Shown here in pieces: positions 5,101-19,275 of a DNA stretch of 20,319 nucleotides. The stretch is taken from IMG/VR virus record IMGVR_UViG_3300044645_000846, positions 1 through 20,319 of that record; one strand, 5' to 3'. Origin of the DNA: a virus. Position 1 is the stretch's first letter, and each line of letters opens with the position of its first letter. Made by a program: the position numbers and the translations under genes. The notes under the pieces were generated by a model. It was given only the letters and a program-made list of their open reading frames with translations. It had not been told where the DNA came from and searched no databases.

Positions 5101-5539
5101 CGGCGTTGACGTTGACATCAGTAATACTGCGAGTAACGGGCGAGGCTTGAAGGACTTTGACGTTAACGCCGCTTTCTTCTTGTGTTGATGTACCCGTTTC
5201 TGTCAGATACGTCTGGTTTTGCGTGCCGTAGCGCGGATTGATTGTGATGCCTTTGAAGTTAAAATCTGCGTCCTGGTATGGCTGGCTTGCATCAGCACCA
5301 GCTCGCACCAGCGGTGTTTCTTCGATGTAAATGTCTTTCAGGAGAGCACGGTTGTAGGAATCCGTGCCACGGGTATAAGCGCGAGCGGATGGGAAACCTT
5401 CAATTTCGCCCTCGCTGATTAGATCGACGATGCGGGCGTATTGCTTAGATTCGAGGTTGTCACGCTCAACGCTGGGCGGCGAAGGCGCCGAATAAGAAGG
5501 CTGACCGCCACCAGAACCAGCAATCTGACGGTCGCTCAT
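2180..5539 (-). CDS. Central tail tip / host specificity protein (lambda gpJ-like), 1119 aa
   Basis: A 1119-residue protein, almost the length of lambda gpJ (1132), at the tip of the tail where gpJ makes host contact. The N-terminal 600 residues carry the family core: YARIVDLISEGEIEGF, LKDIYIEETPL, the ADPAVSGNYTI segment, DPAWILWDLLTSTRYGFGDY, a central TRHTVAVVSYLDLE segment and VRPGQIVQVADP. About residues 660-740 form a fibronectin type III-like domain (LIVSWQPVENAPRYIFRYRY), with a second Ig/FN3-like domain at about 745-855. Residues 1030-1119 look like a small beta C-terminal domain common on phage adhesins (YSVTFPTAFYAAPSVGITAQ, ending FDYQAVGHGR); a receptor or sugar contact there is an inference. 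The start overlaps the gpI stop (ATGA), and the stop overlaps the fibre ATG (TAATG). Confidence 0.94.
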   Translation of the reverse strand: MSDRQIAGSGGGQPSYSAPSPPSVERDNLESKQYARIVDLISEGEIEGFPSARAYTRGTDSYNRALLKDIYIEETPLVRAGADASQPYQDADFNFKGITINPRYGTQNQTYLTETGTSTQEESGVNVKVLQASPVTRSITDVNVNAVRVTLSVPQLQKIFNDGGIEGTQIDLEVRLSYNGGPYTTVLTDTIKGRTTDLYQRKYKIDFTQAPPVDVRVVRINADPAVSGNYTILSDFYWASYTELIYAKTAYPNSAVVGILADAEQFSSFPQRSYRIRGIKIALPSNATVDATNGRLIYSGVFDGTFQSAKWCSDPAWILWDLLTSTRYGFGDYIAAASLDKFAFYAASVYCNELVPNGFGGTEPRFSCNVSIQTQDEAYKLINDLCSVFRAQPFWSTGSLTIAQDRPTDPTFVFNQGNVTPEGFTYSGSSLKTRHTVAVVSYLDLETRETAYEMVEDTDAMRKYGVNKVEIAAFACTSRAQARRVGEWLLYSEQRQGEVISFATGIAEGTQVRPGQIVQVADPVKAGRFRAGRITGGTALAVTLDRSAEDMFADGMPATMDFSVVLPTGVSQTITGINGTALNGSTLTLPSSLDLVPTVGSTWAISTSSVNTQLYQVLTVQEQEGGQTFAITALLHETGKYDYIERDIPLVARDISELDVAPATPQGLGATELLYESNGQVLSKLIVSWQPVENAPRYIFRYRYNSGNWTTLTTRSPDYEILNSEVGLYDFELQAESSGFKRSGTATASFNALGKTAPPASIPDLFIAPIDDRNAELYWPQAVDLDVRIGGQVRIRYTPNIGVNATWGRANDIVPAVNGSSTRKIVPLLEGTYLIRAVDSTGNESADVATVVVDLPAPQDIYLIQEYREDDDAPPFQGTATDMFYSADEGGLVLTSTGLIDDIPDWDAISSVDFYGATSTSGSYQFLNTLDLSNVYDIDLRAILLTRAFQPGDAWDERTELIDEWDDIDGDDLSAVNAQLYVRTTNDNPSGTPTWNDWQPFVNGTTRGRAFQFRVDATSHNPAQNILIDELGVVTQFQRRTETQRNLSSGTAAYSVTFPTAFYAAPSVGITAQDMATGDFFTLSSISRTGFTVTFRNSGGSMVSKTFDYQAVGHGRQIT

Positions 5540-6153
5540 GACGCTGCAATCTCCTCGGTGTTAATGCCGGACGAAATGACGACTGAGCCAACAATCGTCT
5601 CGCCGTAAACAATCGGTACAGGTACACCTTGACGGCTTACGTTTTGGATGCCGCTGAAACTGTATGACTTACGTGGATCGTTGAAACTATCGGTGCCACT
5701 TGTTACGGCTGATGTTTGTGCTGTTGGAGTGAGTAGTTGAGCGGTGCCCGCAAGAGCCAATGAAAAGCCTATTGCGCCCACGGTAGGAAGAGCAGAACTT
5801 ATGGCAAATGAGCCAATCATTGCCGCTCCAAACGGGTTGATTAGTGCCAATGCAATCAAACCGATCCCTGCCGCAATCTGACCGAAACCGCTACCTGCAC
5901 CAACGACAACAGGGATGATGCGGATCGGCTCGCTTTCGGCAACGGGATAACCCAGCACCTCTGGATGGTCGGCAATCGCAAGCTGCAGGCGTCCGGTAGT
6001 CACCTTGTAGTGGTGCTGCGCCATGTGCCCTTCCAGCTTTGGGAAGTTGGCCAGCAGGAAACGAATTGCCTCGGTAGGGGTGCTGACTGCTGCTTTGAAG
6101 CTGCGGTGGCCGAGGAATTTAGCCAGGCTGCCGTAGACCTTGATGACCCTCAT
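5536..6153 (-). CDS. Tail tip assembly protein I-like (205 aa)
   Basis: The start is placed at the ATG at 6153, which forms TGATG with the gpK stop; a GTG three codons upstream (6162) is possible but has no advantage. The protein begins [15 protein letters not shown], an N-terminal ubiquitin-like fold typical of gpI, then has a glycine/alanine-rich hydrophobic centre (about residues 88-145, with IGLIALALINPFGAAMIGSF) that could be membrane-active, and ends with the family motif IQNVSRQGVPVPIVYGE, then VGSVVISSGI. gpI-type proteins are needed for tail tip assembly and are not clearly present in mature lambda tails. The stop overlaps the gpJ start as ATGA. Confidence 0.9.
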   Translation of the reverse strand: MRVIKVYGSLAKFLGHRSFKAAVSTPTEAIRFLLANFPKLEGHMAQHHYKVTTGRLQLAIADHPEVLGYPVAESEPIRIIPVVVGAGSGFGQIAAGIGLIALALINPFGAAMIGSFAISSALPTVGAIGFSLALAGTAQLLTPTAQTSAVTSGTDSFNDPRKSYSFSGIQNVSRQGVPVPIVYGETIVGSVVISSGINTEEIAAS

Positions 6154-6869
6154 CAGCGGCACCTACTGGAGTGGCGGAGCACTCGCCCCGTCTGCTTTTG
6201 ATAGTAGCCGCCGTAGATGTCGCGGGAACTAAGTCGTCCGCGAATGTGGTGAAGAATCTGCTGCTCACCCACGTAGACCGCGACGTGATTCAAGCCGGAC
6301 GATCCATCCAGCGACATCAAGATGGCGTCTCCGACCTGCATCGTTTCCAGCGGCACCTCAACAAAACCCGCCTCCTTCCAGCAACCATCAAACATCGGGT
6401 TGGTGGTGAAGCCGTCCATGTCAAGCGGGCGCTCCCAGTCAGGGAGTTCTAGACCCCAGGTTTCGGCGTACCAGTCGCGAACCAGCGTCCAACAATCGCT
6501 GATGCTCCAGACCCACTGCCGCCCGATCAGTGGTGCCTTGTAGTCACTTGGGGCAATCTCGCACCATGCCAACGTGCCGGGGTTGACGATGTACCAGCGT
6601 AGGCCGGACTTGGTGCAGCCGAGGCGATCGGCGTCACTGGGGGTGGCGGGTGTTTTCGGGTGGCTATGGAAGACAGCAACCACCTCACCGGCATCCTCGG
6701 CATCGGCGTAGTCGGCGGGATCCAGCAGGAAGAAGTCGTCGGCGGTGGGGGCAAGGTTTTGGCATGGCCAGTACCGTTCGCGTCCTTTGATCACCACCAC
6801 CAAGCCGCAGGCTTCCCGTGGCGCTTCGGCCAATGCGTGCTCAACTGCTGCCTTCTGCCAGCTTTTCAT
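6153..6869 (-). CDS. Tail tip assembly protein K-like: JAMM metallopeptidase plus NlpC/P60
   Basis: A 238-residue two-domain protein of the lambda gpK type. Residues 1-110 are a JAB/MPN domain with a complete JAMM motif: E19 (PREACG), H68-S-H70-P, S78 and D81 in the spacing H-x-H-x7-S-x2-D, ligands for zinc. Residues 113-238 are an NlpC/P60 domain with candidate catalytic C126 (ISDCWTLV), H195 (LNHVAVYVG) and H207 (ILHH). The NlpC/P60 family cleaves peptidoglycan peptides; the JAMM part probably processes a tail protein or a cell-wall bond. Both active sites look intact. The ATG overlaps the gpL stop (TAATG), and the TGA overlaps the gpI ATG (TGATG). Lambda gpK has 199 residues, so the length fits. 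Confidence 0.93.
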
Positions 6870-8428
6870 TAGTAGGACGCTCCAACGCCTGGGAATGAGC
6901 CGAAGGGCAGCTCGGCGTTTTCACCGAATCGCACCTTGCAACTGCTGAGACGTTTGCCGCATACATCGTTTAGCGGGTCGCCGGTGCCGGAAATGACGCG
7001 AGGCTCGGTGGTGTTGTTGATGCCCGTTTCCCAAATAACAGCGTCACTGGAGTTCAACAGGCGAAGGTTGCCGTTGTTTTCGATCACAGCGCGGTTAGCC
7101 GTACCAGTTACAGAGGCGATGGTATAAACCGCCGAAACCGTAGTCAGCGTGCCGTAGCCGACTGGTGAACGGAAGGGGTTGCTTAGGGCAGTGGTAACTG
7201 TTGCCTTAAATACGGTGTCCTGCTTCCACAGGCCGGTGGAGGAGATCACGGTTGCAGCGGCCCCAGAGCCGCTGGTTTGACGCCAGCGGTTGGTGGCAGA
7301 GGGATACAACGGTGCTTCGGCGCTAGGTATTAACTCACAGGTGGCGGCAAGCTGCAGCGTCATCGTCTTGCCTTCGTAGGTGAAGGTGTAGTTAGCAGTG
7401 CGAGTGGTGCCAACGGCATAGCTATCGGCGTTGCCTAGGACTTCGTGGAAGAACGAGCCGTTGCGACCTGCGCGGATGTCGGTTGGCTCCCAGTTCTGGT
7501 AGGTGACGGTGACAGGTGTTCCAAGGAAGGCCGTGCCCGTGCGCCACACCGATACACCAGCAGTGGTCAGCAGGCGCAGGTTGCCGTTGGATTCCATCTC
7601 CAAGCGGTAGCCGCCGATGTCTTGGGTGTTGGCACTCCACACAACGTTGCCGGCTTTGTCCTGCACAAATACGTTGCCGCGTGAGCCGATGCGCCAGCGA
7701 AACCACTGATTGCTGCTGACCAGTTGCGTCTCAAGCACAAAGGTGGTGGTGCCAGGGCTGAGCGTATTGGTGCCGCTGGGCCAGTTGGTGGCGGGCACGC
7801 TATTGAGCGGGGTGTCGTTTTCGTCGAAGTAGTTGGTGCCCGTGTAGCCGCACTCGGCACTGCGGTAGACCCACTGGCACAGGTTGGCGATGCACTGGCG
7901 CTTAGGGGCACGAACACCAGCAAGGTCAAACGCAGCGGCCAGCTCAAACTCCACCACGTCGCGGTTTTCAACCGTCTTGCGATCGACGTAATAAACCTCC
8001 TTGGGAAACTCAATATCTGATGGAGTGCCGTAGGGGTTGACGCCACCGGGGAAGTTGACGGCATCCAAAAACCGGCTCAGCGTGCGGATGCGTGTCACCT
8101 TCGCGCCAGTCAGGTCGTTGCCGAAGGTCTCGTCGTTGATGTTGATGAGGATGGCCGAGATGCTGCCGAGGAGGTTGGCAACGCGGATCTTGGGGCGTGG
8201 CAGTTGACCGTTGCCGTTGTACTCAAATCCCTCGGCTTCAATGGGCAAGGCGTAGTAGCTGTTGCCTTTCCACACCACATCACCAGCAGCGGTGGTTTGG
8301 TTAACGCCGTTGTGGAAGCGGTAAATTTCGTCGCTGCCGTGCAGGTCTTGGCGCAGTTCAATTTCAAACAGCTCAATAATCGCGTAAGGCGAGCTGCTGA
8401 TTAGGTCTTCAAAGACGCTTGAGGTCAT
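6869..8428 (-). CDS. Minor tail protein L-like with lectin-like insertion (519 aa)
   Basis: The core is a lambda gpL homologue: residues 1-200 ([51 protein letters not shown]) and residues 486-519 ([19 protein letters not shown] and the GSFPG ending). Lambda gpL has 232 residues; here about 280 more lie between. Cysteines C179, C184 and C193 come before the insertion and C490 and C497 after it; in lambda gpL the corresponding C-terminal cysteines hold an Fe-S cluster. The insertion contains three repeats of bulb-lectin type (about 247-268, 277-299, 448-470; for example [20 protein letters not shown]). The QxDxNxVxY mannose-binding positions are only partly kept, so sugar binding is open. gpL sits in the tail tip under gpJ. 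The ATG overlaps the gpM stop (ATGA), and the TAA overlaps the next ATG. Confidence 0.88.
7056..7081 (-). repeat. Lectin-like repeat, copy 2 (DNA level)
   Basis: Partner of the stretch at 7569-7594, encoding NGNLRLL of the third lectin-like repeat in gpL. The two copies are about 500 bases apart, further than the spacing between repeats in a usual bulb-lectin domain. Confidence 0.65.
7569..7594 (-). repeat. Lectin-like repeat, copy 1 (DNA level)
   Basis: This 26-base stretch encodes the NGNLRLL core of the second lectin-like repeat in gpL. It matches 7056-7081 at 22 of 26 bases by eye in the same orientation. The surrounding peptides agree at 11 of 21 positions. Confidence 0.65.
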
Positions 8429-8793: not shown

Positions 8794-11345
8794 TACGCCA
8801 GCAAGCCTCCAGGGCGCTTCTGCTTGATCAATTCTGCCTGCACAGCAGCACCAACAGCACGTCCTAATGCATTTGCGTCAGGTGCATTTCCTTGCACGCT
8901 GGAGCCGCTTGCATCGACGTTGACAACCACATTGGCGCCACCACCCTTCATGGTCACCGGAATCGTACGACCATCAGGCAGGGGCACATAGGCTTCGGGG
9001 CGACTTCCTTCGCCGTAAATGGCCATTTGCGGGCTGTTTGCAATGCCTCCGGCTGCGTAACGACGCAGATCAATCGGTCCGTTGGCAGTCATGATACCGC
9101 CATTGGCAAAACCAAGAAAATTGCCTATCGCGGAGCTACCAGGGAAAAATGCTTTTAGTGTTTGGAAAATTGCAGCTCTCATAAATATTTTGCTCAAATC
9201 TAAAAGAACCGATCGAGTGAAATCCGCAAAACTTGCTTTTCCAGTTGTTACAAATTCAGCCAACTGATCTCCAAGTCCAACAAAAGTATTCCCCAATGAA
9301 GAACCAAGATTTGCTCCAAGATTCAATGCAGAATCAGCAATTGATTTAAAGGAGGCTTTGAAGTTATCTTTGAAACTTTCCCCAGTTTTAGCGGCGCCTT
9401 CCAAGGCTTCCCGCAGTTTTTGAATTGCTTCAAGCAATTCTTCGGATGTCAATATGCCTGCAAATTTTTCAATTACTGCAGCAAGTTGTTTATTTATTTC
9501 AACGCGCCTCTTGTCTTCCTCGCTTAAAACTTTTGTTTTTAATTGTGCGTCTGCGATCAAAATATTGATTTGCGCTCTGGCTTGTGCCTCTTCGTCAAGA
9601 GCCTTTATTACGTCTGTGCCATACCCTTTAAATGCATTTTCAATTGCCTGCTCTAATTGTTGCTGAGACTGAGCGCCTTCAAGAATTGCTTGATTAACGC
9701 CAATCTGGCCGCGTTCAAGTTTTTTTTGTAAATCAAGCTCTCTTTGTAAAAATTTTGAATATTCAGCGCGAATGTCAAGACCTTGTCGCTCAAGGTTTAC
9801 GGTGTCCAACCCAAGCTGTAATTGTTCATTTGTAAGGTCAATAATTTTTTTGCGCTTTTTCTCTTTTTTATCTGCCGCTCCTTCTGCGTCTAAGCCTGGC
9901 GTTGCGCCTTCGCCGGTGCCAAATAAACCAGCACCTGGTTCAAATTCTGGGAAATAGTCTTTGAAATTTTTGGTGTATTCGTTTAAAACATTGGTTACCT
10001 TGCCAAATATTTTTTCTGGAGTCGTGCCAAATGCTTCGGCAATTTTGCGCGGAAGAAATAATGCAATATCGCTAAATATTTTAAAAAGACCTCGCGAAAA
10101 TCCAAACATGGTGCCGCCAATTTTCGCCAATGCTCTTCCAATGTCTCTCGCCAAATTAAACCAAAAAGTCGCAAACCTTTTGATTTGTTCTGAGTTTTGA
10201 TTTGCCCAACTGATTGTCTTGGCGAGATTATCTTGCAAACCTGCGCCAATTTTCTGGAAAAATCCACCATAGTTTTCGCCTGCAGTATCCAAAGCAATTT
10301 GTAGTCGGGCACCTGCCTTTGCCGGCGAATCACCAATGATTTTGGCAATTTCGTCGTAATCATCTAATTGTTGCTTGGCAAATTTGACGAAGTCGGCAAT
10401 TTTTACTTCGCCTTGCTCAAAAGCTTTTGCCAATTCCGGCAGTGTTCGACCAGTGGCTGCAGCAAACTTGGCAACAGCACCGGGCAAGCGTTCACCAATC
10501 TGACCGCCCATTTCTTCGGCGCTTACCTTGCCCTTGCTCAAAACCTGAACGGTGGCGCGGACGATTGCATTGATATCTTCTTGAGATTTACCAAACGCAA
10601 CGCCAGCGGCAACAACGCCCCTGTAGATCGTTTCTGTTTCTTTCAGGCTCAATCCATTGGCACGCGCAGCTACTGAAACCTGTGCATAACCGGAAATTGT
10701 TTCCTTGAGAGAAATCGCGTAATCGTCGCTAACTTTTCTTGCAATTTGCAAATTCCGTGAATAATCTTCTTGACTGCTAGACGCTTGAGCAAGAGTTATT
10801 TTTGCAAGATTGAGATCGTTGTTGTAGTTGGCAATTGCTGCAGACGCTTGCCGCAACGGTCTAATGACCATGCTGCCAACAGCCACGCCAATACCTGCAC
10901 CAGCAGCAGTACCAGCGCCAGGAATAATGCTTCCCAACGCAGCGCCACCAGCAGCACCAATCAGCTCATCTGGTCCGAGAAAGCTAGCGCCTGCTGCAAT
11001 TGCTCCAATCCTGCCTCCACCACCACCGCCACGGCGTCCTTGTGCTTTTGCGGCCTGAGCTTCAAACTTCGAGGCTTGAGCAGTAGCCTCCTTAAATTCT
11101 TTGCTTGCAATATCAACACTGTTCGCCAACTCACGCCAAGAAGCGGCATAGTCCTTGAGAGTTTTTATGCTATTGGCGCCAGTTTTTTCTTGAACATCGC
11201 GCAGTTCATTTGATAAAACTTTGAATTTTGCAGAAGATATCGTTGTTTGATTTGCAAGATTATTTAACTTCGCGCTGAGACCTTGGAAGACCGCTTCGCC
11301 CTCAGCCTTGATGCGCAGCTTGATTTCCGAGGTGATTGAACTCAT
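8793..11345 (-). CDS. Tape measure protein (lambda gpH-like), 850 aa
   Basis: The protein that sets tail length and is ejected with DNA. Its 850 residues almost equal lambda gpH (853), so a tail near lambda's length is expected. Order: helical/coiled region 35-105, Gly-rich hydrophobic segment 105-165 (likely membrane-active), tape measure N-domain about 190-330 with KGKVSAEEMGGQIGERLPGA, basic hinge KKEKKRKK at 493-500, long charged helix 500-650, lambda-type C-terminal domain about 660-735 (LAEFVTTGKASFADFTRSVL), then a Gly-rich tail 745-850 with IYGEGSRPEAYVPLPDG. In lambda the C-terminal end is cleaved during assembly; the similar tail suggests the same here, by inference. The gene is much richer in A and T than its neighbours: positions 9961-10020 have 17 G or C of 60, against 36 of 60 at 12181-12240 in the tube gene. 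It starts in an ATGA overlap and ends in TAATG. Confidence 0.95.
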   Translation of the reverse strand: MSSITSEIKLRIKAEGEAVFQGLSAKLNNLANQTTISSAKFKVLSNELRDVQEKTGANSIKTLKDYAASWRELANSVDIASKEFKEATAQASKFEAQAAKAQGRRGGGGGGRIGAIAAGASFLGPDELIGAAGGAALGSIIPGAGTAAGAGIGVAVGSMVIRPLRQASAAIANYNNDLNLAKITLAQASSSQEDYSRNLQIARKVSDDYAISLKETISGYAQVSVAARANGLSLKETETIYRGVVAAGVAFGKSQEDINAIVRATVQVLSKGKVSAEEMGGQIGERLPGAVAKFAAATGRTLPELAKAFEQGEVKIADFVKFAKQQLDDYDEIAKIIGDSPAKAGARLQIALDTAGENYGGFFQKIGAGLQDNLAKTISWANQNSEQIKRFATFWFNLARDIGRALAKIGGTMFGFSRGLFKIFSDIALFLPRKIAEAFGTTPEKIFGKVTNVLNEYTKNFKDYFPEFEPGAGLFGTGEGATPGLDAEGAADKKEKKRKKIIDLTNEQLQLGLDTVNLERQGLDIRAEYSKFLQRELDLQKKLERGQIGVNQAILEGAQSQQQLEQAIENAFKGYGTDVIKALDEEAQARAQINILIADAQLKTKVLSEEDKRRVEINKQLAAVIEKFAGILTSEELLEAIQKLREALEGAAKTGESFKDNFKASFKSIADSALNLGANLGSSLGNTFVGLGDQLAEFVTTGKASFADFTRSVLLDLSKIFMRAAIFQTLKAFFPGSSAIGNFLGFANGGIMTANGPIDLRRYAAGGIANSPQMAIYGEGSRPEAYVPLPDGRTIPVTMKGGGANVVVNVDASGSSVQGNAPDANALGRAVGAAVQAELIKQKRPGGLLA

Positions 11346-11683
11346 TTGCGGCTCGCATTCAAAACGGAAAGGGCAGCCATTTCCATCACCTGCACGCCCT
11401 CAAAGACAGCGACAGGATCCTTGACTGAATACAGCTTACAGAGCCATTCAAGACTCGGGTAGTTCAATCCTGTCAGTCCTGCCATGCTCGTGTGCCATTG
11501 CGTCGACATGCGGATGAACATCACCACGATGTCCCAGTTCTCCTCCCAGACCTCACAGTCCTGTTGTACAGCTTGCAAACGTGCAGCGGCAATCTGCTCC
11601 TCACTTGCGCCAAGAGCCTTCAGGTCGGCTTCGCGCTCGTCAACTACGCCACCTTTCGCCCAGTACTCAGCAGCGACTTTTAG
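11342..11683 (-). CDS. gpT-like extension (DUF1799-like), made by -1 frameshift from gpG
   Basis: The T part of the G-T fusion. After the slip at 11683 the frame encodes 113 residues: LKVAAEYWAKGG, DEREADLKALGASEEQI, then a segment with CEVWEENWDIVVMFIRMSTQW and GLTGLNYPSLEWLCKLY. The W-ENW...F-STQW...GL-Y pattern is that of the phage DUF1799 family found just before tape measure genes. There is a TTG at 11578, but the frame is open and family-like well upstream of it, and no ATG with a good ribosome site precedes it, so I read the piece as an extension and not an independent gene. The fusion would be 221 residues. In lambda the T domain binds the tube protein and the G domain binds the tape measure. 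The stop overlaps the tape measure start as ATGA. Confidence 0.82.
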   Translation of the reverse strand, partial: LKVAAEYWAKGGVVDEREADLKALGASEEQIAAARLQAVQQDCEVWEENWDIVVMFIRMSTQWHTSMAGLTGLNYPSLEWLCKLYSVKDPVAVFEGVQVMEMAALSVLNASRK

Positions 11684-12006
11684 TTTTTTGCCGGCGCCCC
11701 TGTCACGCTGTCGGCATACGCTTGGATGATCGCCTTCATCACATAGGGATCATCACAAAGCTCTTTTTTGTTCTTTGACGTAAAGGGAACAGGCTTGCCC
11801 TCTTCATCATTGACGCCCTCCCAGCCTTCAAGGATCCCATCAACAAGAGCGTCATCACCCTTGTCAATGAGATCGTTAAAAGCCGAGCGACTCATCTTTT
11901 TGAAGACTGCCTCAAACGTTTGAGTCTCAAAGCGATTTCCGTCAACCGGAGTTTCAACTTTGATTTCCCACTTGTAGGAAGCAGTCTTCTTGAGAACGAA
12001 GGCCAT
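11680..12006 (-). CDS. Tail assembly chaperone gpG-like (108 aa)
   Basis: A 108-residue acidic, helical protein starting MAFVLKKTASYKWEIKVETP, with ETQTFEAVFKKMSRSAFNDL, EGWEGVNDEEGKPVPFT and YVMKAIIQAYADSVTGAP. Its position between tube and tape measure, its size and the 'core GWEGV-D-G-PVPFT' pattern identify it as the short form of the lambda G/GT chaperone pair. These proteins coat the tape measure and recruit tube subunits. They are not in the finished virion. The last two sense codons before TAA form a slippery heptamer, so part of translation should continue in the -1 frame to make a 221-residue fusion. Confidence 0.85.
   Translation of the reverse strand: MAFVLKKTASYKWEIKVETPVDGNRFETQTFEAVFKKMSRSAFNDLIDKGDDALVDGILEGWEGVNDEEGKPVPFTSKNKKELCDDPYVMKAIIQAYADSVTGAPAKN
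11683..11689 (-). promoter_or_regulatory. Programmed -1 frameshift site, A_AAA_AAC
   Basis: The coding strand at the end of the gpG-like gene reads GCA AAA AAC TAA. Taken with the last base of GCA this is A_AAA_AAC in the correct phase for tandem -1 slippage, and it is immediately followed by the stop, which would add a pause. From the slip point the -1 frame is open (CTA AAA GTC GCT ...) down to 11342. A purine run AGGGG at 11701-11697 lies seven bases upstream and could act as a Shine-Dalgarno-like stimulator. I did not find a clear downstream hairpin. Lambda uses the same strategy with a different heptamer. Confidence 0.82.
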
Positions 12007-12015
12007 GAACAGAGA

Positions 12016-12957
12016 TCAGGTGAACACCAGCGAAGCTTCGTTGTTGCCAGCCGTGGTGGGCAGAGCCAGGTACGGCATGGACAGCGCGATTACGCCGTTA
12101 GTATCAGCGTAGCTGCAACCGGTGATGTCTGTCTGCGCTGCGTTCAGCGTGACGATGTTGCCAGCGGTGGCGCCCAGCACGAGGCTGGTGGAACCAGTGG
12201 CAGAAGCAACAGCCTTGGCGAAGAAGTCGGTGGTGCCAACAGCAGGAGCCTCGATCACAGCCGTACCACCAGGGGCGCGGTTGGTGATCAGCACTTCCTG
12301 AGAGCTAGCGGTCTCCTTGTAGAGCAGCTCGTTGTTGAGCGCCATGTCGAACGACTCAATGCGGGAGCTGGTCACACCGTGGAAAGTGGCCGTGGTCACG
12401 TTGGTGTCGTTGATCTCGATGGCAGCAGCCTGGTTGGCAACAGTGAAGGAGCCAGACAGGGCGGTGCCGTCAGGGGCGTTGTAGATGCCGATGAACTGGA
12501 AGCTGGCAACAGCAAACTGACCAGCAGTCAGGTTGAAGCTGACAGTGCCGCGTGCGCCGGTGATCTTGTGACGAGTGCCGTCGTAGAAGCAGTAGATCGT
12601 GGCGGAACTGAAGCTGCTGCTCACCGGGGCATAGGTTACCGAGGTGGAAGCAGAAATGGTCTCGCTCAGGCCGCAGGACTTCAGCAACGGACCAAAAGCA
12701 GGAGCGGTGCCAGCAGTGCCAGAACCAGACAGCTCAACATCAAAGGTCACGCTGACGCGCTTGTTGGCAACCAAAGTGCCACGGGTGCTGTTACCAAGGA
12801 AGCCTTGATAAGAAGCCGCTTGAACGTTGTCCGACTCAATCGGAGTTACTTCAAGGTTGGTAACTTGAACCGCGTCAGAACCGCCGACAGGACTAGGGTC
12901 AGTCCCATAGGTTGTCTCAATCTTCGCGATCAGAAACTTCTTCCGAGTCAGTGCCAT
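12016..12957 (-). CDS. Major tail (tube) protein, 313 aa
   Basis: The tail-tube subunit, whose stacked hexamers form the tail shaft and DNA conduit. It begins MALTRKKFLIAKIETTYGTD, the usual start of phage tube proteins (a basic strand followed by E-x-x-YGTD). It continues with LEVTPIESDNVQ, a strand RVSVTFDVELSGSG, FGPLLKSCGL, KITGARGTVSFNLTAGQFAV and a distal beta domain (about residues 190-313). It is longer than lambda gpV (246). The position between terminator and gpG-type chaperone is the lambda U-V-G order. The whole gene contains no TTA, CTA or TCA codon, a bias expected of a highly expressed gene and the cause of a long open frame on the opposite strand. Nine bases separate the stop from the next start. 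Confidence 0.88.
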   Translation of the reverse strand: MALTRKKFLIAKIETTYGTDPSPVGGSDAVQVTNLEVTPIESDNVQAASYQGFLGNSTRGTLVANKRVSVTFDVELSGSGTAGTAPAFGPLLKSCGLSETISASTSVTYAPVSSSFSSATIYCFYDGTRHKITGARGTVSFNLTAGQFAVASFQFIGIYNAPDGTALSGSFTVANQAAAIEINDTNVTTATFHGVTSSRIESFDMALNNELLYKETASSQEVLITNRAPGGTAVIEAPAVGTTDFFAKAVASATGSTSLVLGATAGNIVTLNAAQTDITGCSYADTNGVIALSMPYLALPTTAGNNEASLVFT

Positions 12958-13069
12958 CGGTGGTAGGAGCGGCGGTTTCTGTGATCAGTGTAAGCTTCCC
13001 AGACTTAGGGTCAAACAAATAGCTGCCGCCCACTCCGGGATTGGGAACTTCCCTTTCAATCTTAGCCAT
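12917..13069 (-). CDS. Small ORF between tail terminator and tail tube (50 aa)
   Basis: A 50-codon frame from ATG at 13069 to TGA at 12917. It starts MAKIEREVPNPGVGGSYLFD, continues PKSGKLTLITETAAPTTDGT and ends in an acidic tail DSEEVSDRED. The start is four bases after the terminator gene's stop. The end overlaps the first 41 bases of the tail-tube gene in another frame. Without it there would be a 116-base hole in an otherwise gapless operon, which is the main argument that it is real. The GGSY-DPKTG-like core resembles small proteins I recall in this position in other siphoviruses, but I cannot name a function. Length alone is not convincing, so confidence is moderate. Confidence 0.6.
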   Translation of the reverse strand: MAKIEREVPNPGVGGSYLFDPKSGKLTLITETAAPTTDGTDSEEVSDRED

Positions 13070-13073
13070 GATG

Positions 13074-13499
13074 TTAGGCGCTGGTTAGTGAAGTCCTGCT
13101 CGTGCGATAGCGCACAAGGAAGTCTTGGCTAATGATACCCAAAGGCACATCAGCTTCATAAAGACTGAAGTCAGTACGGTCAGGTGTCAAGTCAAGCGCA
13201 TAACCGTTGACGGTTTGATCGGCCATCAATTTTTGATGCACCTGCTGTGTGTAGGTGTCTGATGTGTCGTCAGGAATGGCAGCACGAACAAGGGTGGTGA
13301 TCCTGACTCGCATCGTCCAATCCAACTTGTCGTAGAAGTTGGTGTCAATCGGTTGATCGTTGACCGGCTCCACGATCACAGCAGGCACCTCACCCCGCGC
13401 CAGAGGCTCTACACGGCTCCTGTAGACCGTTGCGCCCGTGATGGTGTCAAGATTGCTCTTGATGCGAGCCAGGATCAATTCTCGGCGGGTGTCAGCCAT
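13074..13499 (-). CDS. Tail terminator (gpU-like), 141 aa
   Basis: A 141-residue protein close to lambda gpU in length (131). It has the family pattern: an N-terminal helix RRELILARIKSNLDTITGA, then VYRSRVEPLARGEVPAVIVEP, a strand WTMRVRITTLVRA, a helix TYTQQVHQKLMADQ and a C-terminal strand GIISQDFLVRYRT. Such proteins form a hexameric ring that stops tail-tube growth at the length set by the tape measure and docks the tail on the head. It precedes the tube gene, as in lambda (U before V). Two bases separate it from the upstream stop. The stop is TAA. Confidence 0.75.
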   Translation of the reverse strand: MADTRRELILARIKSNLDTITGATVYRSRVEPLARGEVPAVIVEPVNDQPIDTNFYDKLDWTMRVRITTLVRAAIPDDTSDTYTQQVHQKLMADQTVNGYALDLTPDRTDFSLYEADVPLGIISQDFLVRYRTSRTSLTSA

Positions 13500-13501
13500 G
13501 G

Positions 13502-14140
13502 TCAGGCGGAAGCGACTTGGACAACGGTGCAGATCACGCCGGGGATACTTGGATGAGCGTAAGGACTGGTGGCTGCTGCCTCAGCGTGAATGTAGGCAGC
13601 AACGTTTGATGTTGCCCAGATCAACTCCAAGTAATCACCGGCAACAACTGGCAACACAAAATTGACGCAGCCGATCACGTTGCCGTCAACGTTGCCATGC
13701 TTTGCGATGATGCTGAATCGGCTGTCGCTAGCCGGCACGTTACCAGCGCTGCCTTCGTTGTTCTTGCGCAACCAAACGTTGATATCGTGAATGCTGTTGT
13801 CCGTATTGCTGAACTGAATTGAGAACGTAATGCTGTAAACGCCAGCGTGATCAAAGGTGATTTGAGTGCCGGAAACAACGCGAATGCCGCGACTACCAGT
13901 GTCACGTTGACGCAGGTAAATCGATGTCGGCGTATTGGCAGTTGCCGTCTGTGAGGTTAAATCCCAGAAAGAACCCCAATAACTAGGAGACGAAAAATAC
14001 GGAAGCCGACTCCAAGTTGAAACCCCATCTCCAATCTTGAGATTATTTGTTTGCGTTTCAATGGCGGCTTCACCAGGAAGCAACACAGGATTTAATGCCG
14101 CCCAATTCGCTCTGGTGTTGACTTTGAAGACGCTGCTCAT
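13502..14140 (-). CDS. Structural protein: tropism-determinant-like N-terminus plus C1q/TNF-like jelly roll
   Basis: A 212-residue protein of two parts. Residues 8-48 (NTRANWAALNPVLLPGEAAI, then KIGDGVSTWSRLPYF) match the short N-terminal domain found at the base of major tropism determinants and many phage fibres. Residues 52-212 are strand-rich with TFDHAGVYSITFSIQFSN, INVWLRKN, VNFVLPVVAGDYLELIWAT and a hydrophobic last strand VICTVVQVA, the style of trimeric C1q/TNF-like jelly-roll domains in phage structural proteins. Such domains usually bind sugars or proteins at the virion surface. It sits between the head-tail joiner and the tail terminator, ten bases after the former and two before the latter, not with the tail-tip fibres. 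A head or neck fibre is my best inference; a collar spike is an alternative. Confidence 0.66.
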   Translation of the reverse strand: MSSVFKVNTRANWAALNPVLLPGEAAIETQTNNLKIGDGVSTWSRLPYFSSPSYWGSFWDLTSQTATANTPTSIYLRQRDTGSRGIRVVSGTQITFDHAGVYSITFSIQFSNTDNSIHDINVWLRKNNEGSAGNVPASDSRFSIIAKHGNVDGNVIGCVNFVLPVVAGDYLELIWATSNVAAYIHAEAAATSPYAHPSIPGVICTVVQVASA

Positions 14141-14150
14141 GACCTCAAAG

Positions 14151-14432
14151 TCAGACTTTGCTCAATAGTAGTTCTGAAAAAACACCGTCATCAACAGGGC
14201 GATTCTCACGCACGGTGTAAGACACGGAATCAACCGTAATAGAAGTGCCGCGAGCGGCAGTGCTGACATCAGAAGTCTTTGCCGTAAGCAAGTACTCCCG
14301 AGACAACGCCATACCGCCCGCGATCACATCCATAGGCGAATCCAGAATGCCAAGAAACGCAGTACCAGCACCAATTTGGCAGGTAACGCCAAACTCGTTC
14401 AGGAAAGCATCTGGCAATTCAGGAAACGCCAT
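14151..14432 (-). CDS. Head-tail joining protein (gpFII-like), 93 aa
   Basis: The start at 14432 lies five bases after the decoration gene's stop and gives MAFPELPDAFLNEFGVT. The open frame upstream of it is Cys/Arg/His-rich out-of-frame translation of the previous gene and is left out. The protein has the small beta-barrel pattern of lambda gpFII: an N-terminal helix, a GAGTAFLGILDSPMDV segment (compare the FDDP turn of gpFII), LLTAKTSDVS, a GTSITVDSVSYTVRE hairpin, and PVDDGVFSELLL at the end, matching the DDG turn of the family. gpFII binds the gpW-plugged portal and receives the completed tail. Placement between the capsid block and the tail block fits. Similarity is by motif reading only. 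Confidence 0.66.
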   Translation of the reverse strand: MAFPELPDAFLNEFGVTCQIGAGTAFLGILDSPMDVIAGGMALSREYLLTAKTSDVSTAARGTSITVDSVSYTVRENRPVDDGVFSELLLSKV

Positions 14433-14437
14433 CAGGA

Positions 14438-14827
14438 TCAGTTGCCGTACTTCTTGCTGTAAACCAGCGAGACGCCGTACACGAACACAGGGTTGGTGCC
14501 AGCTTGAGTACCGACAGCACGCACATAACGGCGCACATCGTTGGAGTTGATGCTGATCTTCTCGAAGGCAGCAGCAGAACCAGTGACCTCGGTGAAGGTC
14601 TTGCCGGTGATGTCTGCCCAAGCAGAGTTGTCTTCAGAATCCTGAAGCTTGACGTTCAGGGTAGGAGTGGTGCCACTACCAGCTTCGCAGTCGAGGACCA
14701 CGATGGCTTCGCCTTCAGCATCGTTCGAGCCTTGCAGATCGAAACCGGTGCCGGTGGCAGTAGCGGTGCGGGAGTCAGCCGGAAGGAGGCTGGCGATGTA
14801 GGTCTTAGACCCCAGGTTGTGGATCAT
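14438..14827 (-). CDS. Probable capsid decoration protein (129 aa)
   Basis: The frame is open upstream of 14827, but the start is placed there because a good Shine-Dalgarno (GGAG, then eight bases) precedes this ATG and the peptide MIHNLGSKTYIASLLPAD begins like the family. The upstream residues overlap the previous gene and look like out-of-frame coding. The 129-residue protein has a strand-rich pattern with DLQGSNDAEGEAIVVLD, LNVKLQDSEDNSAWADITG and a C-terminal YVRAVGTQAGTNPVFVYGVSLV. I recognise it as a structural protein commonly placed just after the capsid gene in siphoviruses, usually regarded as a decoration or head-stabilising protein. The gene contains no TTA, CTA or TCA codon from position 14504 upwards, a bias shared with the capsid and tail-tube genes and consistent with high expression. 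Decoration is inferred, not demonstrated. Confidence 0.72.
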   Translation of the reverse strand: MIHNLGSKTYIASLLPADSRTATATGTGFDLQGSNDAEGEAIVVLDCEAGSGTTPTLNVKLQDSEDNSAWADITGKTFTEVTGSAAAFEKISINSNDVRRYVRAVGTQAGTNPVFVYGVSLVYSKKYGN

Positions 14828-15053
14828 TGGTCTTTCTCCGTTTGGGAGCGGGTTTGCTTTGAACAGGATCCGGCTGCTCGTCAGCCGTAACAACAACTTC
14901 CTCGATGATGGGAGCGGGAATGGCCTTCTGAATACCGATCAACAGCAGAGCTGATTTTTTATCGGTTTCTACGTAATCACCAACTTTCACCTGCTTGAGG
15001 TCAACGATGGTGTCACGCAGCATCTGAATGCGCATTACCCGCTCCGTAATCAT
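14805..15053 (-). CDS. Small head-region protein of unknown function (82 aa)
   Basis: An 82-residue protein whose ATG overlaps the capsid stop as TGATG, so it is almost certainly translated with it. Residues 1-45 look folded, with a segment VKVGDYVETDKKSALLLI like the small phage proteins in head operons that carry a GD-V-V-turn and a Leu-Ile helix. Residues 46-82 are rich in Pro, Gln, Lys and Arg (KPAPKRRKTNDPQPGV) and probably disordered and basic. It occupies the place where lambda-like phages have small accessory head genes. Its end overlaps the next gene's start by 23 bases. I cannot assign a function; DNA contact by the basic tail is possible but unsupported. Confidence 0.72.
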   Translation of the reverse strand: MITERVMRIQMLRDTIVDLKQVKVGDYVETDKKSALLLIGIQKAIPAPIIEEVVVTADEQPDPVQSKPAPKRRKTNDPQPGV

Positions 15054-17716
15054 CAGGACAGCTTGCAGATGGACTCAGGATGACGGATGGCCACGTCATA
15101 GTCCTGCATGGCCACCACACGCACGGTGCCGGAGGCGGAACCGGTGTAAGGGTCAACCATGATGTCCAGACCGCTCCAGAAGCCGATCAGGATGTCGCTG
15201 AAGTTAGCGAACACCGCAGTGTTGTTCGGCATGGAGTTGGACACATAAGCCGGGTAACCGTTGATGGTGTTGTCGGCTTCGTAGATGAAGTTGGCATTGG
15301 TGCCGGTAGCCGACTTCTCGGTGGTCTTCAGAGTGCCGCGCAGAGCGGAGTTCATCAGATAGCCGAGACTGCCCAGCAGGGCGTTGTCGGTGCTCAGAGC
15401 GGCTTCAGCGTTCACATAGTCAGCGAACGTGGTGTAGCCGGACTCGGTGTTGATACCGGTCACGTTCAGGAAGCCGAGCGGATAAGAAGCAGCGCCAATG
15501 CCGTTGATGGCTTGGTTCTCAACTTCAATCGCGATCTGCTGAGCCAGGTCACGGCGAACCAGATTCTCAATGTCGATGCTGGATTGAAGCAGCAGACGAC
15601 GGGAGTAATCGGTCAGAGCACCAATGGTGCGCGGCTGCATCGTCACTTGGTCGACGGTCAGTTGACCCTCGGTGATCGAGCCGGACTCGGCAACGTGGTA
15701 CACAGTGGCACCACCGCTCTGGCGGGGCAGAGCAACCATGCCTTGCAGACCGGTCATCACAGTTGCGCCGGCGGTCTGGAGAACCAGAGCCTTACGCAGC
15801 AGGTCGATGAAGCTCTCGCTCATCAGTTCAGTGGCAACCAGGTCACCACCACCGGAGGCAGAACCAACGGTCAGGTCGCGACGGCCATAACCCAGCACAT
15901 CGGCGGGAATCAGGATGCCACGAGCTTCCTTGCCAGACTTCTGCTGAGCAGCACGGCTGACTTCCATTTCGAAAGCAGCAGCACGCTGAGCTTCTTGGCT
16001 GTTGGGGTGAGCAAGAGCGTTGATGGCGCGGATAAAGGAGAAGTCACGCTTCTCTTTGTCCGACATGCCAATCTCGGCATCTTTCGGGTTCAGAGGCTTC
16101 TCTTCCACACCCATCTTTTCCAGAAGGGCAGAACGAAGCTCATCGAGGCTGCGGGAGTTAGCGATGAACTCCTGAGCCATTTCAATGTTCTTGGTGCGTT
16201 GACCAAGAGCAATCATGTCGGCCATTTCCTTAGCCTTGGCCTGAGCGGCCTCAGCGCGGATAGCCTCAACATTGAGGTTTTGATCCACGGTTGTAACTCC
16301 GTTGGGTTGACTGTGAACGGCTGAGGCCGTATCGACGTTCTCATTATGGGAGAAAGAACGTCCAATTCCAACCGAATTATCAGCCGGCACGGTGACCAGG
16401 CTTATTTCAAACGGTTGGAAACTGGTAGCGCGATAAGTCACAGGTGATGTGGACTCATCGGCTTCCATGGAGTTGATCTTGTAGCCGAAGCTGACATTGC
16501 GGATGATTCCATCCTTGATCAACTCTTGCATCTCGCGACCTAGTTCGTTGTTCGCGAGTTTTACGCGTGCATAGGCACGCTTGTTTTTGATGTAAGCCTT
16601 CTGCACAACGCCGACGATTTTGTCTGCATCGTGTTGGTACAACAGAGGCGCACCATCATTGAGACGGGTGAGATCCATGGACTTGGCATCCATGCTCAAC
16701 ACTTCCATGCCGTAGTAACGCTCAACAGGCGCTTCGCTGGCAAAGGGGAACTCAAGCGTGCGATCTTCGCTTTCAGAGCGAAACTCAGTTGCGAGTGAAC
16801 GCTTCAGCGTCTCGCCTTCAAAGAAACGCAGCGCAGCAATCTTGCGAAGTTCAGAGAACTTATGACCGACAACAGTTTCGGTTTGTTCGTAATTGTCTTC
16901 GCTGTTTTTGCGGTACACGCGAATCAATGCAGCGGGATCTTCTTCAGATGCGTTAATCGTAAACGAAGAATCCGGCACTTCAATTACACCTTCGCGGGCA
17001 ATTCGCGTAACTTTACCGCGTGCAGTGCCACCACTTGAATCCCACTCTACAAAATCACCAACTTTGACGGCGTCAGGCGCGGCACGCTCCTCTTCGCGTT
17101 CACCGGTGGCTTCTTCAAACATCATCGGATCAAAGTCGTGATCGCTCAGCCATTCGCGAGCCTCGGCAGGCGTAAAGCGGTCAGCATCAAAGCGGATGGC
17201 CTGCAGTTCAGAGGTGCCTTCTTTGATCCCATAAATAGCATCAATGCCAGCGCCAAATTCATCATTGACGCGGCGGATGCTGTCGTACTGATCAGGGTCA
17301 GTCAGGCGAGCAGCATGCTCATTGGGATAGGGGCGTCCATCGACGATCTCTTCGTTGATTTCCATGGCACGCTCCTGTGCTTTTTTAATGGCTTTGGATT
17401 TCATGTTGCTCCAGGTTTGACCTGAATCACCACCCCATGCCGCCCATGCTACGCGACCCGGCGAAGGATAGTCTTCACCATCAGGGCGGAAGCCTTTGCC
17501 CTGCTTGTCAACCTCATGGCGGGCAAACCATGCGGCCATCGTGATGACAGTTTCAGGACTCAGTTCATCACCGGAAAGGATCTGGCCGGCACGCGTAGCG
17601 GCAACATCAGTGCCACCGGGGCGACCGTCTTTCTTCCATGCGCGATAACGACGCGCTTCGGCCTTCATGCCTTCTGTTGGCATCAGGTCGATTGTTTTGT
17701 CACCAACCTTTGCCAT
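15053..17716 (-). CDS. Prohead protease / HK97-fold major capsid fusion (887 aa)
   Basis: One uninterrupted frame with several modules. Residues 1-120 hold a helical segment ending in a motif with HEVDKQGKGF, PSPGRVAWAAWGGD and W102. Residues 128-205 form a second conserved-looking module (IYGIKEGTSELQAIRF). Residues 216-268 look like a Tudor/SH3-type barrel (VKVGDFVEWDSSGGTARGKV). Residues 295-455 are an S78-type prohead protease with candidate catalytic H362 (LYQHDAD), S409 (RNVSFGYK) and E437 (FEISLVTVPAD). Residues 477-600 are a scaffold-like delta region. Residues 600-887 are the HK97 capsid fold (ILIPADVL, TVYHVAESGSITEG, AINGIGAASYPLGFL, near-terminal VAMQDYDVAIRHPES). The family protease processes the prohead and removes the delta region. 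The start forms TGATG with the portal stop. A credible internal start at 16288 would yield a separate 411-residue capsid protein. Protease and capsid identity is strong; I do not know the functions of the N-terminal modules. Confidence 0.92.
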   Translation of the reverse strand: MAKVGDKTIDLMPTEGMKAEARRYRAWKKDGRPGGTDVAATRAGQILSGDELSPETVITMAAWFARHEVDKQGKGFRPDGEDYPSPGRVAWAAWGGDSGQTWSNMKSKAIKKAQERAMEINEEIVDGRPYPNEHAARLTDPDQYDSIRRVNDEFGAGIDAIYGIKEGTSELQAIRFDADRFTPAEAREWLSDHDFDPMMFEEATGEREEERAAPDAVKVGDFVEWDSSGGTARGKVTRIAREGVIEVPDSSFTINASEEDPAALIRVYRKNSEDNYEQTETVVGHKFSELRKIAALRFFEGETLKRSLATEFRSESEDRTLEFPFASEAPVERYYGMEVLSMDAKSMDLTRLNDGAPLLYQHDADKIVGVVQKAYIKNKRAYARVKLANNELGREMQELIKDGIIRNVSFGYKINSMEADESTSPVTYRATSFQPFEISLVTVPADNSVGIGRSFSHNENVDTASAVHSQPNGVTTVDQNLNVEAIRAEAAQAKAKEMADMIALGQRTKNIEMAQEFIANSRSLDELRSALLEKMGVEEKPLNPKDAEIGMSDKEKRDFSFIRAINALAHPNSQEAQRAAAFEMEVSRAAQQKSGKEARGILIPADVLGYGRRDLTVGSASGGGDLVATELMSESFIDLLRKALVLQTAGATVMTGLQGMVALPRQSGGATVYHVAESGSITEGQLTVDQVTMQPRTIGALTDYSRRLLLQSSIDIENLVRRDLAQQIAIEVENQAINGIGAASYPLGFLNVTGINTESGYTTFADYVNAEAALSTDNALLGSLGYLMNSALRGTLKTTEKSATGTNANFIYEADNTINGYPAYVSNSMPNNTAVFANFSDILIGFWSGLDIMVDPYTGSASGTVRVVAMQDYDVAIRHPESICKLS
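16286..16300 (-). promoter_or_regulatory. Internal ribosome binding site and GTG start for stand-alone capsid protein
   Basis: Within the protease/capsid gene the coding strand reads ACGGAGTTACAACCGTG. GGAG lies at 16300-16297, followed by eight bases and a GTG in the same frame at 16288-16286. This GTG is codon 477; the peptide from it begins VDQNLNVEAIRAEAAQ, which looks like the N-terminus of a free HK97-type capsid protein. It would give 411 residues, within the usual range for a capsid with its delta region. The decoration gene nearby uses the same layout: GGAG, eight bases, ATG. The site is an inference; nothing here shows that it is used. Confidence 0.5.
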
Positions 17717-19275
17717 CAGTCGATGTCCTCAAGTTCAGGTTCTTCCTCATGTTCCATCGGATGTTCAGTTGGAGCAACAGGAACAGGTTGAGAAACACCG
17801 TTGTTAGAAACCTGCGACGGGTCGGTATCAAGGACAATGCCGTACTCATCAGCAACAGCAAGTTCATGTTGACGTTGACGCATCTGATCCTCAAAGTCAC
17901 CGCCGTGCAGGGCGATCACCTGCGACAGCGTCATGATGCCTGAGCGGATCAGTTCCTTGTAAGCAGCAGCTTCTTTCTGCGGGTCAACGAACTGAGCAGC
18001 GGGTGCAATCCACTTGGCTTCTTCATAACGCTCAGGGTTGCTGTCGTAATTTGGCAGATCCAGAACGCCGGCCAAAACCGCCATTTCAATCCACTTCTCG
18101 TAGACCTCTTCACAGAGCGATTCGATCAAATATTGCTGGAGTGTTTTGTAATGCGTTCTTGTTTCAAGCAGTTCCAGTCGTGAAGAGCTGTAGTTGCTCT
18201 GAGAGAAATCTGAGCTGACTTGCGTGTAAGAACAGCCAATCCCAGCAGCCACAGCTCGCAGCATTTGCTGCACAAAAGGAGTGAATGCATCATCAGGGCG
18301 ATTGGGCGTGAAGAACTGCATTTCTTCACCGGGTGCCAATCGACGGATGCTGCCGGGTGAGAAGTCGAGGACAGACTCCTGATCAAACGTGCCATCTTCA
18401 AACAGCTCCTGATCCGGCGTCTTGACGAACGCCATCATGCTGCTGCTGGCGCGAGCGGCGACAATCTCCGCTTCTTCGTATCCAGACAAGTTGCGCAGGC
18501 GCATGATCGCCGTAGCAAACGCGCTAACACCACGCGTCTGGCCGGGGCGTTCAATCAAATACAAGTGAATGATGTCTTCAGCGGGAATGCGCACGCGGCG
18601 CTTCATTGCCTTGACGGCGTAAGCAAATTGGTAATCGCCAGGGTGGTAATCAAAGAAGTGATAGGCAACCGGGCGCCCCCACTTGTCAATCTCCACGCCC
18701 ATTCGCACTTCATTGCCGTTCTTTTCGATGCCGCTGTAATCATCATCAAGAAGATCCGACTCGATGAGTTCCAGTCCAAGCGGCACCTTGCTGCCACCAA
18801 ACGGTTGCTTGACAAGACGGATGAAGACTTCACCGGATTCAAGGACAGAGGTGATGCTGAGGCGTTGGATGTCATACCAGCTCAGCTTGCCGCCGGCGTG
18901 ACAACGCTTGGCTGATGTCCAACGGTCGAATTCCTCTTCGATGCGGCGATTGATCTCATCAGCAAGGCGCCCACCACGCTGCATGCGCACTTGAGCTTGC
19001 ATCCTGATGCCGGTGCCAACCACGTTGTTGCGGACAGCACGCAGGGCAGACTTGGCGAAATCGGAATCACGCACCAGTTGACGGGCGCGATTGCGAAGCA
19101 TCCTGATGCTGCCTCGGATCTCACTGTCAGCCGACGTGGCTTGGCTGATCCAGTCAGACGTGAGGCGGTTGTTCTGAGCGGCGGCATACGCACGCTTCAG
19201 GTAACCATTCTTCTGCTGCGCTTCAGCCAGTTGCTTTTGCAACGCGCCGGTGCGACCGATACCGAAGATCGCCAT
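17716..19275 (-). CDS. Portal protein (lambda gpB family)
   Basis: A 519-residue portal, close to lambda gpB (533). Portals form the dodecameric ring at one capsid vertex through which DNA enters and to which the connector and tail attach. Supporting features are the N-terminal AAQNNRLTSDW region, the VRNNVVGTGIRMQAQV segment, VLESGEVFIRLV, the ELIESDLLDDDY segment, the IPAEDIIHLYLIERPGQTRG motif, and the C-terminal GIGCSYTQVSSDFSQSNYSS segment followed by a long helical region, all typical of the lambda-type portal_2 family. The tail (about residues 485-519) is acidic and proline-rich (EHEEEPELEDID) and probably disordered. The start overlaps the preceding stop as TAATG, and the stop overlaps the protease/capsid ATG as TGATG, so translation is probably coupled on both sides. 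I see no truncation. Confidence 0.95.
   Translation of the reverse strand: MAIFGIGRTGALQKQLAEAQQKNGYLKRAYAAAQNNRLTSDWISQATSADSEIRGSIRMLRNRARQLVRDSDFAKSALRAVRNNVVGTGIRMQAQVRMQRGGRLADEINRRIEEEFDRWTSAKRCHAGGKLSWYDIQRLSITSVLESGEVFIRLVKQPFGGSKVPLGLELIESDLLDDDYSGIEKNGNEVRMGVEIDKWGRPVAYHFFDYHPGDYQFAYAVKAMKRRVRIPAEDIIHLYLIERPGQTRGVSAFATAIMRLRNLSGYEEAEIVAARASSSMMAFVKTPDQELFEDGTFDQESVLDFSPGSIRRLAPGEEMQFFTPNRPDDAFTPFVQQMLRAVAAGIGCSYTQVSSDFSQSNYSSSRLELLETRTHYKTLQQYLIESLCEEVYEKWIEMAVLAGVLDLPNYDSNPERYEEAKWIAPAAQFVDPQKEAAAYKELIRSGIMTLSQVIALHGGDFEDQMRQRQHELAVADEYGIVLDTDPSQVSNNGVSQPVPVAPTEHPMEHEEEPELEDID

Follow-up and report, generated by a model that had tools for sequence, protein, structure and literature searches.

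The window analysed here, a 20,319-nucleotide stretch of viral DNA (IMG/VR record IMGVR_UViG_3300044645_000846), carries on its minus strand, in order, genes for a portal, an S78-protease capsid protein, an 82-amino-acid protein, a 129-amino-acid protein, an FII-like joiner, a short-fibre protein that we call FIB, a U-like terminator and a tail tube, followed by chaperone, tape measure, M, L, K, I, J and two tail-end fibre genes. Gene order and homology to annotated relatives gave the portal, tape measure, M and I their names, and the naming of L, K (NlpC/P60) and J is supported by Pfam. The features around the slot between FII and U are as follows.

14438-14827, minus strand: 129-amino-acid protein upstream of the joiner, weakly Bbp16 cement-like (Bbp16, E 7e-4, below the gathering cut-off)
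14151-14432, minus strand: gpFII-like head-tail joiner (93 amino acids, ATG at 14432), the upstream slot border (PF05354, E 1.5e-8 with the query 14151-14471)
13502-14140, minus strand: FIB, a short-fibre protein with Mtd_N (residues 9-41) and a predicted C1q/TNF-like jelly roll (residues ~51-212)
14014-14140, minus strand: Mtd_N part of FIB (residues 1-~42), a generic phage-fibre N-terminal domain (Pfam and PDB profile matches)
13502-13990, minus strand: C1q/TNF-like C-terminal domain of FIB (residues ~51-212; predicted model and structure matches)
13074-13499, minus strand: gpU-like tail terminator, the downstream slot border (PHROG 4204, E 2.2e-25)
12016-12957, minus strand: tail tube protein, downstream of the terminator (PF18906, 1e-12)
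1-2180, minus strand: tail-end fibre genes, encoding a 261-amino-acid protein and a SPRY/LamG protein of at least 466 amino acids that is cut by the window end

FIB is a complete, ATG-initiated protein of 212 amino acids, whose gene starts 10 bp past the stop of the gpFII-like gene, with 2 bp between its own stop and the gpU-like start. An earlier note on this DNA, which gave the same coordinates without a strand, had the gene flanked by a gpFII-like joiner and a gpU-like terminator and far from the fibre genes; the PF05354 and PHROG 4204 matches bear out both borders, and the tail-end fibre genes lie about 11 kb away. The joiner also matched NCBIfam tail_join_FII below its cut-off (E 0.0017), and the terminator matched Pfam Phage_tail_U at a sub-threshold E of 0.048.

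A single 887-amino-acid ORF (15053-17716, minus strand) combines Hva1_TUDOR, prohead protease (S78) and HK97-type capsid domains, and its counterpart in roseophage CRP-823 is annotated as two overlapping capsid ORFs. The K-like protein (6153-6869, minus strand) has a JAB domain and then NlpC/P60. Within the gpL-like tail-tip protein (6869-8428, minus strand; PF05100, E 6.6e-59), a region resembling mannose-binding B_lectin (E 1.5e-5, below the curated cut-off) is possibly an inserted lectin, and the C-terminal region of the J-like protein (2180-5539, minus strand) weakly resembles H-type lectin and Gp53-like C-terminal domains (E about 0.005, below cut-offs).

The N-terminal part of FIB is readily recognised by sequence. 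Mtd_N (PF18454) matched residues 9-41 with an E of 1.2e-7 and 32 bits, against a gathering cut-off of 26.3, and it was found in all 22 aligned homologues (E<=0.01). Nearly all PHROG matches to FIB involve the N-terminal ends of proteins that carry a tail fibre, tail spike, structural-protein or hyaluronidase label, mainly 'tail fiber' and 'tail spike', and the FIB profile reached PDB sequences at E<=0.001 via this part only, in phage hyaluronidases (6x3m, E 4e-7). A hyaluronidase identity, suggested by several PHROG and GenBank labels, was rejected, as the catalytic part is absent and the N-terminal residues alone match. FIB is also not Mtd proper, having no Pfam mtd_2nd match and a C-terminal domain that is C1q/TNF-like instead of C-type lectin.

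By sequence the jelly roll is weak in FIB itself (BclA_C, E 0.034); the window sequence did not reach the curated Pfam C1q model, and its C-terminal part has no curated match. Among the 22 homologues, BclA_C was found in 12 and C1q in one at E<=0.01. An AlphaFold2 model of the monomer, built on the 22-sequence alignment, had a mean pLDDT of 87 and a pTM of 0.70. Compared with solved structures, residues 51-212 of this model matched BxpB best (Z 17.1), then BclA (Z 16.3), the phi812 central spike (Z 15.5), Caprin-2 C1q (15.3) and human C1q (about 14); cyanophage matches were a chain of the A4 portal-tail complex (Z 15.0) and the CBD of the A-1(L) short tail fibre (14.5). The predicted model thus argues strongly for a C1q/TNF jelly roll, and the combination of an Mtd-like N-terminus with such a domain in a 212-residue protein, as read in the earlier note, holds on both counts. 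The domain also resembles many uncultured-phage proteins among predicted viral structures, several of collagen-like or side-tail-fibre type. Because many of these fold matches belong to proteins of those two types, the C-terminal domain is not specific to one position on the particle either.

To see what occupies the slot in relatives, we searched IMG/VR with FIB, which gave 209 confirmed matches, of which the best 80 were kept. Within these best 80 of 209, U directly follows FIB in all 80, and the order FII-FIB-U is found in 77, the other three lacking sequence upstream; homologues at the same locus, which the earlier note had proposed to look for in relatives, are therefore the rule in this set. 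Further IMG/VR scans were made with the terminator (best 80 of 271) and the portal (best 80 of 280) to escape the bias of a FIB search. These yielded 153 new loci, 93 of them with both FII and U; the 60 left out comprised 12 from the terminator scan with <=664 bases upstream of U and 48 from the portal scan with <=4.5 kb after the portal match. The 93 loci and seven re-found ones, with identical slots removed, gave 72 distinct FII-U slots (best 80 of 271 plus best 80 of 280). FIB occupies 48 of these, an unrelated protein that we call ALT occupies 20, three are empty and one holds a scar. One-third (24 of 72) thus have no intact FIB, which marks the gene as accessory. As every scan kept the best 80 matches, of 209, 271 or 280, these proportions apply to near relatives only.

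In the scar, 10 codons from the start of FIB lead into six others and then a stop, a 16-codon remnant on one contig (L089, identical to L182) whose flanks are 94.5-95.4% identical to the window; this contig could be an assembly artefact. When 29 whole records, mostly fragments, were searched with both profiles, FIB-type genes were found in 15 (a count that includes Synechococcus phages S-CBS1 and S-CBS3, matched over the N-terminal part only), ALT in eight and both in none. Nor was the choice between FIB and ALT associated with the alleles of the portal, MCP, 82-amino-acid gene, FII, U, tube, TAC or 78-amino-acid gene (p 0.31-0.66), in a test covering at most 68 of the 72 slots, the three empty ones and the scar being omitted, with n from 14 (portal) to 68 (U). 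As a search for the docking partner of FIB, the same comparison singled out no neighbour and speaks neither for nor against any of them.

ALT is about 107 amino acids long (104-108 in 11 aligned examples) and is predicted to form a beta-sandwich (pLDDT 88). It resembles F5/8-type-C domains at a sub-threshold E of 2e-4; its profile had no match among PDB sequences, and the protein had none in phage records. By fold, it matched the BPP-1 cement protein (3j4u_H, Z 8.4) and a Milano neck/portal-vertex chain (Z 8.3), and Foldseek/VIA matches to XepA (Z 11.5) and YomS (11.2) were slightly above others, from which we draw no function. Kinship of ALT with the cement-like 129-amino-acid protein was considered and dropped, profile comparison giving it a probability of 0.9%.

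The FIB gene itself does not look hypervariable. Comparison of the window gene with 96 homologues gave a median dN/dS of 0.107 (tube 0.106, terminator 0.046), with dS high in many pairs and a median of 0.93 for FIB, and the gene is under purifying selection. At some loci the MCP is 85-90% identical yet FIB only 46-55%; at others, which come from the FIB scan (best 80 of 209) and so favour high FIB identity, the MCP is about 50-56% identical and FIB about 69-74%. Over 86 loci, the Spearman correlation with MCP identity was 0.78 for FIB, 0.81 for FII and 0.85 for U. FIB alleles are swapped against the backbone and do not simply track it. Two alleles look mosaic, with identities in the N-terminal and C-terminal parts of 100% and 80% (L027) and of 64% and 85% (L044). 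Given that the slot can hold FIB, ALT, a scar or nothing, that no record among the 29 has both FIB and ALT, and that the choice between these two goes with no neighbouring allele, the FIB slot is a dispensable, exchangeable adhesin-type cassette, held under purifying selection.

The nearest annotated relatives by portal are Synechococcus phages S-LBS1, S-CBS1 and S-CBS3, about 50% identical, and the terminator search matched these three and five roseophages only. A DNA-level search of phage records with window positions 9000-18000 found no match. Because the nearest annotated relatives are Synechococcus phages, we infer, as a guess, that the window phage infects a picocyanobacterium. A profile search of genome contigs for the host found one relative, a 33.7-kb contig binned in a Planctomycetota MAG (L245, 7726-9064), with the order FII-FIB-U and a FIB 43% identical; this was discounted as host evidence because the contig appears to be that of a phage within the bin.

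The slot in the cultured Synechococcus phages holds genes already annotated as fibres, S-CBS1 gp10 ('fibre protein') and S-CBS3 gp09 ('fiber protein'). Like FIB, these two and S-LBS1 A09 sit between FII and U and are about 180-202 amino acids long, and gp10 and gp09 have Mtd_N (E 4.5e-15 in S-CBS1). Unlike FIB, the S-CBS proteins have a C-terminal domain of another sequence family, so that BLASTP aligns them with FIB over the N-terminal ~50 residues only, and A09 has the S-CBS1-type C-terminal domain (66% identical to S-CBS1) without an Mtd_N match. The FII-U interval of S-LBS1 (L238, 7484-11298) contains, along with A09, a 568-amino-acid 'tail fiber', whose first residues resemble S-CBS1 gp07 by eye, and an annotated 'integrase'. 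In S-CBS1 (L082, 2927-3988) and S-CBS3 (L239, 7835-8995), an annotated major tropism determinant lies between the cement-like gene and FII; the S-CBS1 protein of this neck block matches mtd_2nd with an E of 5.5e-24. The contents of these three genomes suggest that the region around the joiner repeatedly gathers adhesin-type genes. In roseophage CRP-823, the slot gene is absent and FII abuts U. The literature covered, outside which lies the original genome paper of S-CBS1 and S-CBS3, held no description of the FII-U slot that we recognised.

The best explanation for these observations, to which we give a probability of roughly 0.5, is that FIB serves a lambda-like siphovirus as a short accessory adhesin fibre, probably a trimer, and that its gene sits in an exchangeable FII-U cassette. 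Since the slot is emptied or swapped without matching changes in its neighbours, FIB is dispensable for building the particle, on which it is probably an optional extra grip. The Mtd_N part and jelly roll, modelled here as a monomer, would form a trimer; its N-terminal end would attach to the virion, with the neck or upper tail as the likeliest site, and the jelly roll would face outward to bind a host surface glycan weakly and reversibly. By analogy with the collar fibres (NPS) of lactococcal 936 phages and the turrets of archaeal virus HFTV1, as far as the available parts of their descriptions extend, this contact would precede engagement of the tail tip, and specific recognition would be left to the dedicated tail-tip fibres. 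FIB would thus probably tune attachment by niche, and loose attachment to polysaccharide, raised in the earlier note, is a reasonable inference by analogy.

A broader reading, which we put forward only tentatively and at somewhat less than even odds, is that a lineage of aquatic lambda-like siphoviruses keeps the FII-U interval as a dedicated plug-in socket for a second adhesin away from the tail tip, one that is freely exchanged among otherwise near-identical phages, is displayed at the neck and tunes loose attachment. Its contents, a no less tentative list, would be a C1q-type trimeric fibre, an unrelated galactose-binding-like sandwich, other fibres as in the cultured relatives, or nothing.

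The location of FIB on the particle has been read mainly from its gene position, which makes a neck placement no more than plausible; we give the neck or upper tail about even chances. In favour of the neck are the strictly kept slot position (best 80 of 209), the presence of other fibre genes at the tail end, and homologues of the C-terminal domain whose genes adjoin capsid or connector genes in other phages. In the available part of the report on Anabaena phage A-1(L), the genes for the neck fibres are described as remote from those for other structural proteins (PMC10966104). Mtd_N, moreover, is also the leading domain of tail-end proteins in S-CBS1, S-CBS3 and another relative: the N-termini of S-CBS1 gp10 and gp20 are 61.5% identical over 52 residues, and the phage of locus L053 (L249) encodes a 460-amino-acid Mtd_N fibre beside F1/F2 homologues at the tail end. 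The layout of A-1(L), as far as that account describes it, and the presence of Mtd_N on tail-end proteins make gene order weak evidence for the neck. Of the head or neck fibre proposed in the earlier note, the adhesin-type architecture and the locus among the neck genes, conserved in relatives, are supported, as is an accessory role, and a seat on the head or neck stays a plausible proposal.

The same observations lend some weight to the alternative that FIB is an ordinary fibre of the tail tip or side, encoded out of order, with Mtd_N docking at the baseplate like the tail-end Mtd_N proteins. Its N-terminal domain is common to tail-end proteins of the same genomes, the PHROG labels on that domain point to the tail, and A-1(L), in the part of its description at hand, illustrates how gene position can mislead. 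We nevertheless consider this unlikely, given that the FII-U position is strictly kept across divergent backbones (best 80 of 209), that tail-end fibres have genes of their own in the window, and that S-LBS1 A09 carries the C-terminal domain of S-CBS1 gp10 in the same slot behind a different N-terminus. This last arrangement implies that the slot is not defined by Mtd_N.

Homologues of the FIB C-terminal domain are encoded near the head genes of several other phages. The gene is flanked by portal and MCP in ctQRb9, an arrangement assigned to DC33 by homology to it; it directly follows a putative capsid gene in phiAC-1, and lies beside capsid or connector genes also in ct2t2046, ctnlZ23 and ctXG6705; some are encoded directly after a stabilization-protein gene. 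In DC31 and ctfjg026, the domain is inside longer proteins with no annotated capsid gene adjacent, and near the one in ctah5458 the annotation lists no capsid gene. Limnohabitans phage DC33 (L084, PQ492659.1) is filed as Inoviridae, a classification that looks wrong for a 39-kb record whose C1q-type protein shares 57% identity with that of podophage ctQRb9, amid a similar gene layout. That such homologues adjoin portal or capsid genes in podophages and phiAC-1, and that ALT has a middling fold likeness to 3j4u_H and the Milano chain, would suit a capsid-shell decoration, an outer knob or cement protein, in place of a neck fibre. We find this reading quite improbable, since a cement-like gene is already there at 14438-14827 (a sub-threshold match) and Z values near 8 may reflect a mere common arrangement.

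A dispensable, exchangeable gene might also be moron-like, its product absent from virions, and this we regard as very unlikely in view of its tight packing in the structural gene run, its fibre-type N-terminus and a C-terminal domain common to phage fibres. In lambda the gene order is FII-Z-U, and FIB occupies the map position of Z, but replacement of the tail completion protein gpZ is the least credible reading of all, as the slot is empty or scarred in relatives, FII directly meets U in CRP-823, the fold is C1q, and the Pfam search found no gpZ/HK97-gp10-type match.

If FIB is indeed an accessory adhesin, a compact one-gene adhesin that is swapped, replaced or lost at a fixed site would offer near-isogenic phage series for the study of a second adhesive surface. 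The locus would also warn annotators not to take each Mtd_N or C1q protein for a tail-tip fibre, or each neck-block gene for that of a neck protein.

Among known systems, streptococcal phage hyaluronidases and BPP-1 Mtd have an N-terminal Mtd_N as in FIB, with different C-terminal domains; both act at the tail. The fold match of FIB to A-1(L) (8ke9) is to the short tail fibre, not the neck fibre; the isolated CBD of that tail fibre does not bind host cells, and stem plus CBD does. A-1(L) is itself a cyanophage with trimeric neck fibres, whose carbohydrate-binding module did not bind the host, as stated in the available part of its report (PMC10966104); unlike FIB, each fibre is described there as a three-protein bead chain with genes distant from other structural genes. 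The turrets of HFTV1, as covered in the accessible part of the source, have a galactose-binding-like domain with a proposed role in reversible adhesion (PMC12494034). Like the proposed FIB fibre, they are surface proteins away from the tail tip; unlike it, they are capsid turrets on MCP hexamers, and the likeness drawn here is one of description.

The closest precedent, going by the part of the source available, is the NPS collar fibre of lactococcal 936 phages, found in 73 of 113 phages with variable C-terminal binding modules (PMC6669499). The same portion of that source describes NPS proteins of ~500-900 residues, with a near-identical N-terminal part of ~180 residues that is proposed to form the collar, and reports the NPS of TP901-1 as non-essential (PMC6669499). 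As there described, the 936 and TP901-1 fibres resemble FIB in being adhesin-type accessories that some phages carry and others lack. They differ from it in their BppU-like N-terminal collar domain and greater length, where FIB has 212 amino acids and a generic Mtd_N, a length and N-terminus that exclude it from the NPS family so described; and the NPS is proposed to form the collar, whereas for FIB a neck location is a plausible reading of gene position. Most known adhesins of the neck and collar come from dairy phages and from a few myophages; the FIB cassette, already annotated as a fibre in S-CBS1 and S-CBS3, is a modest extension of them.
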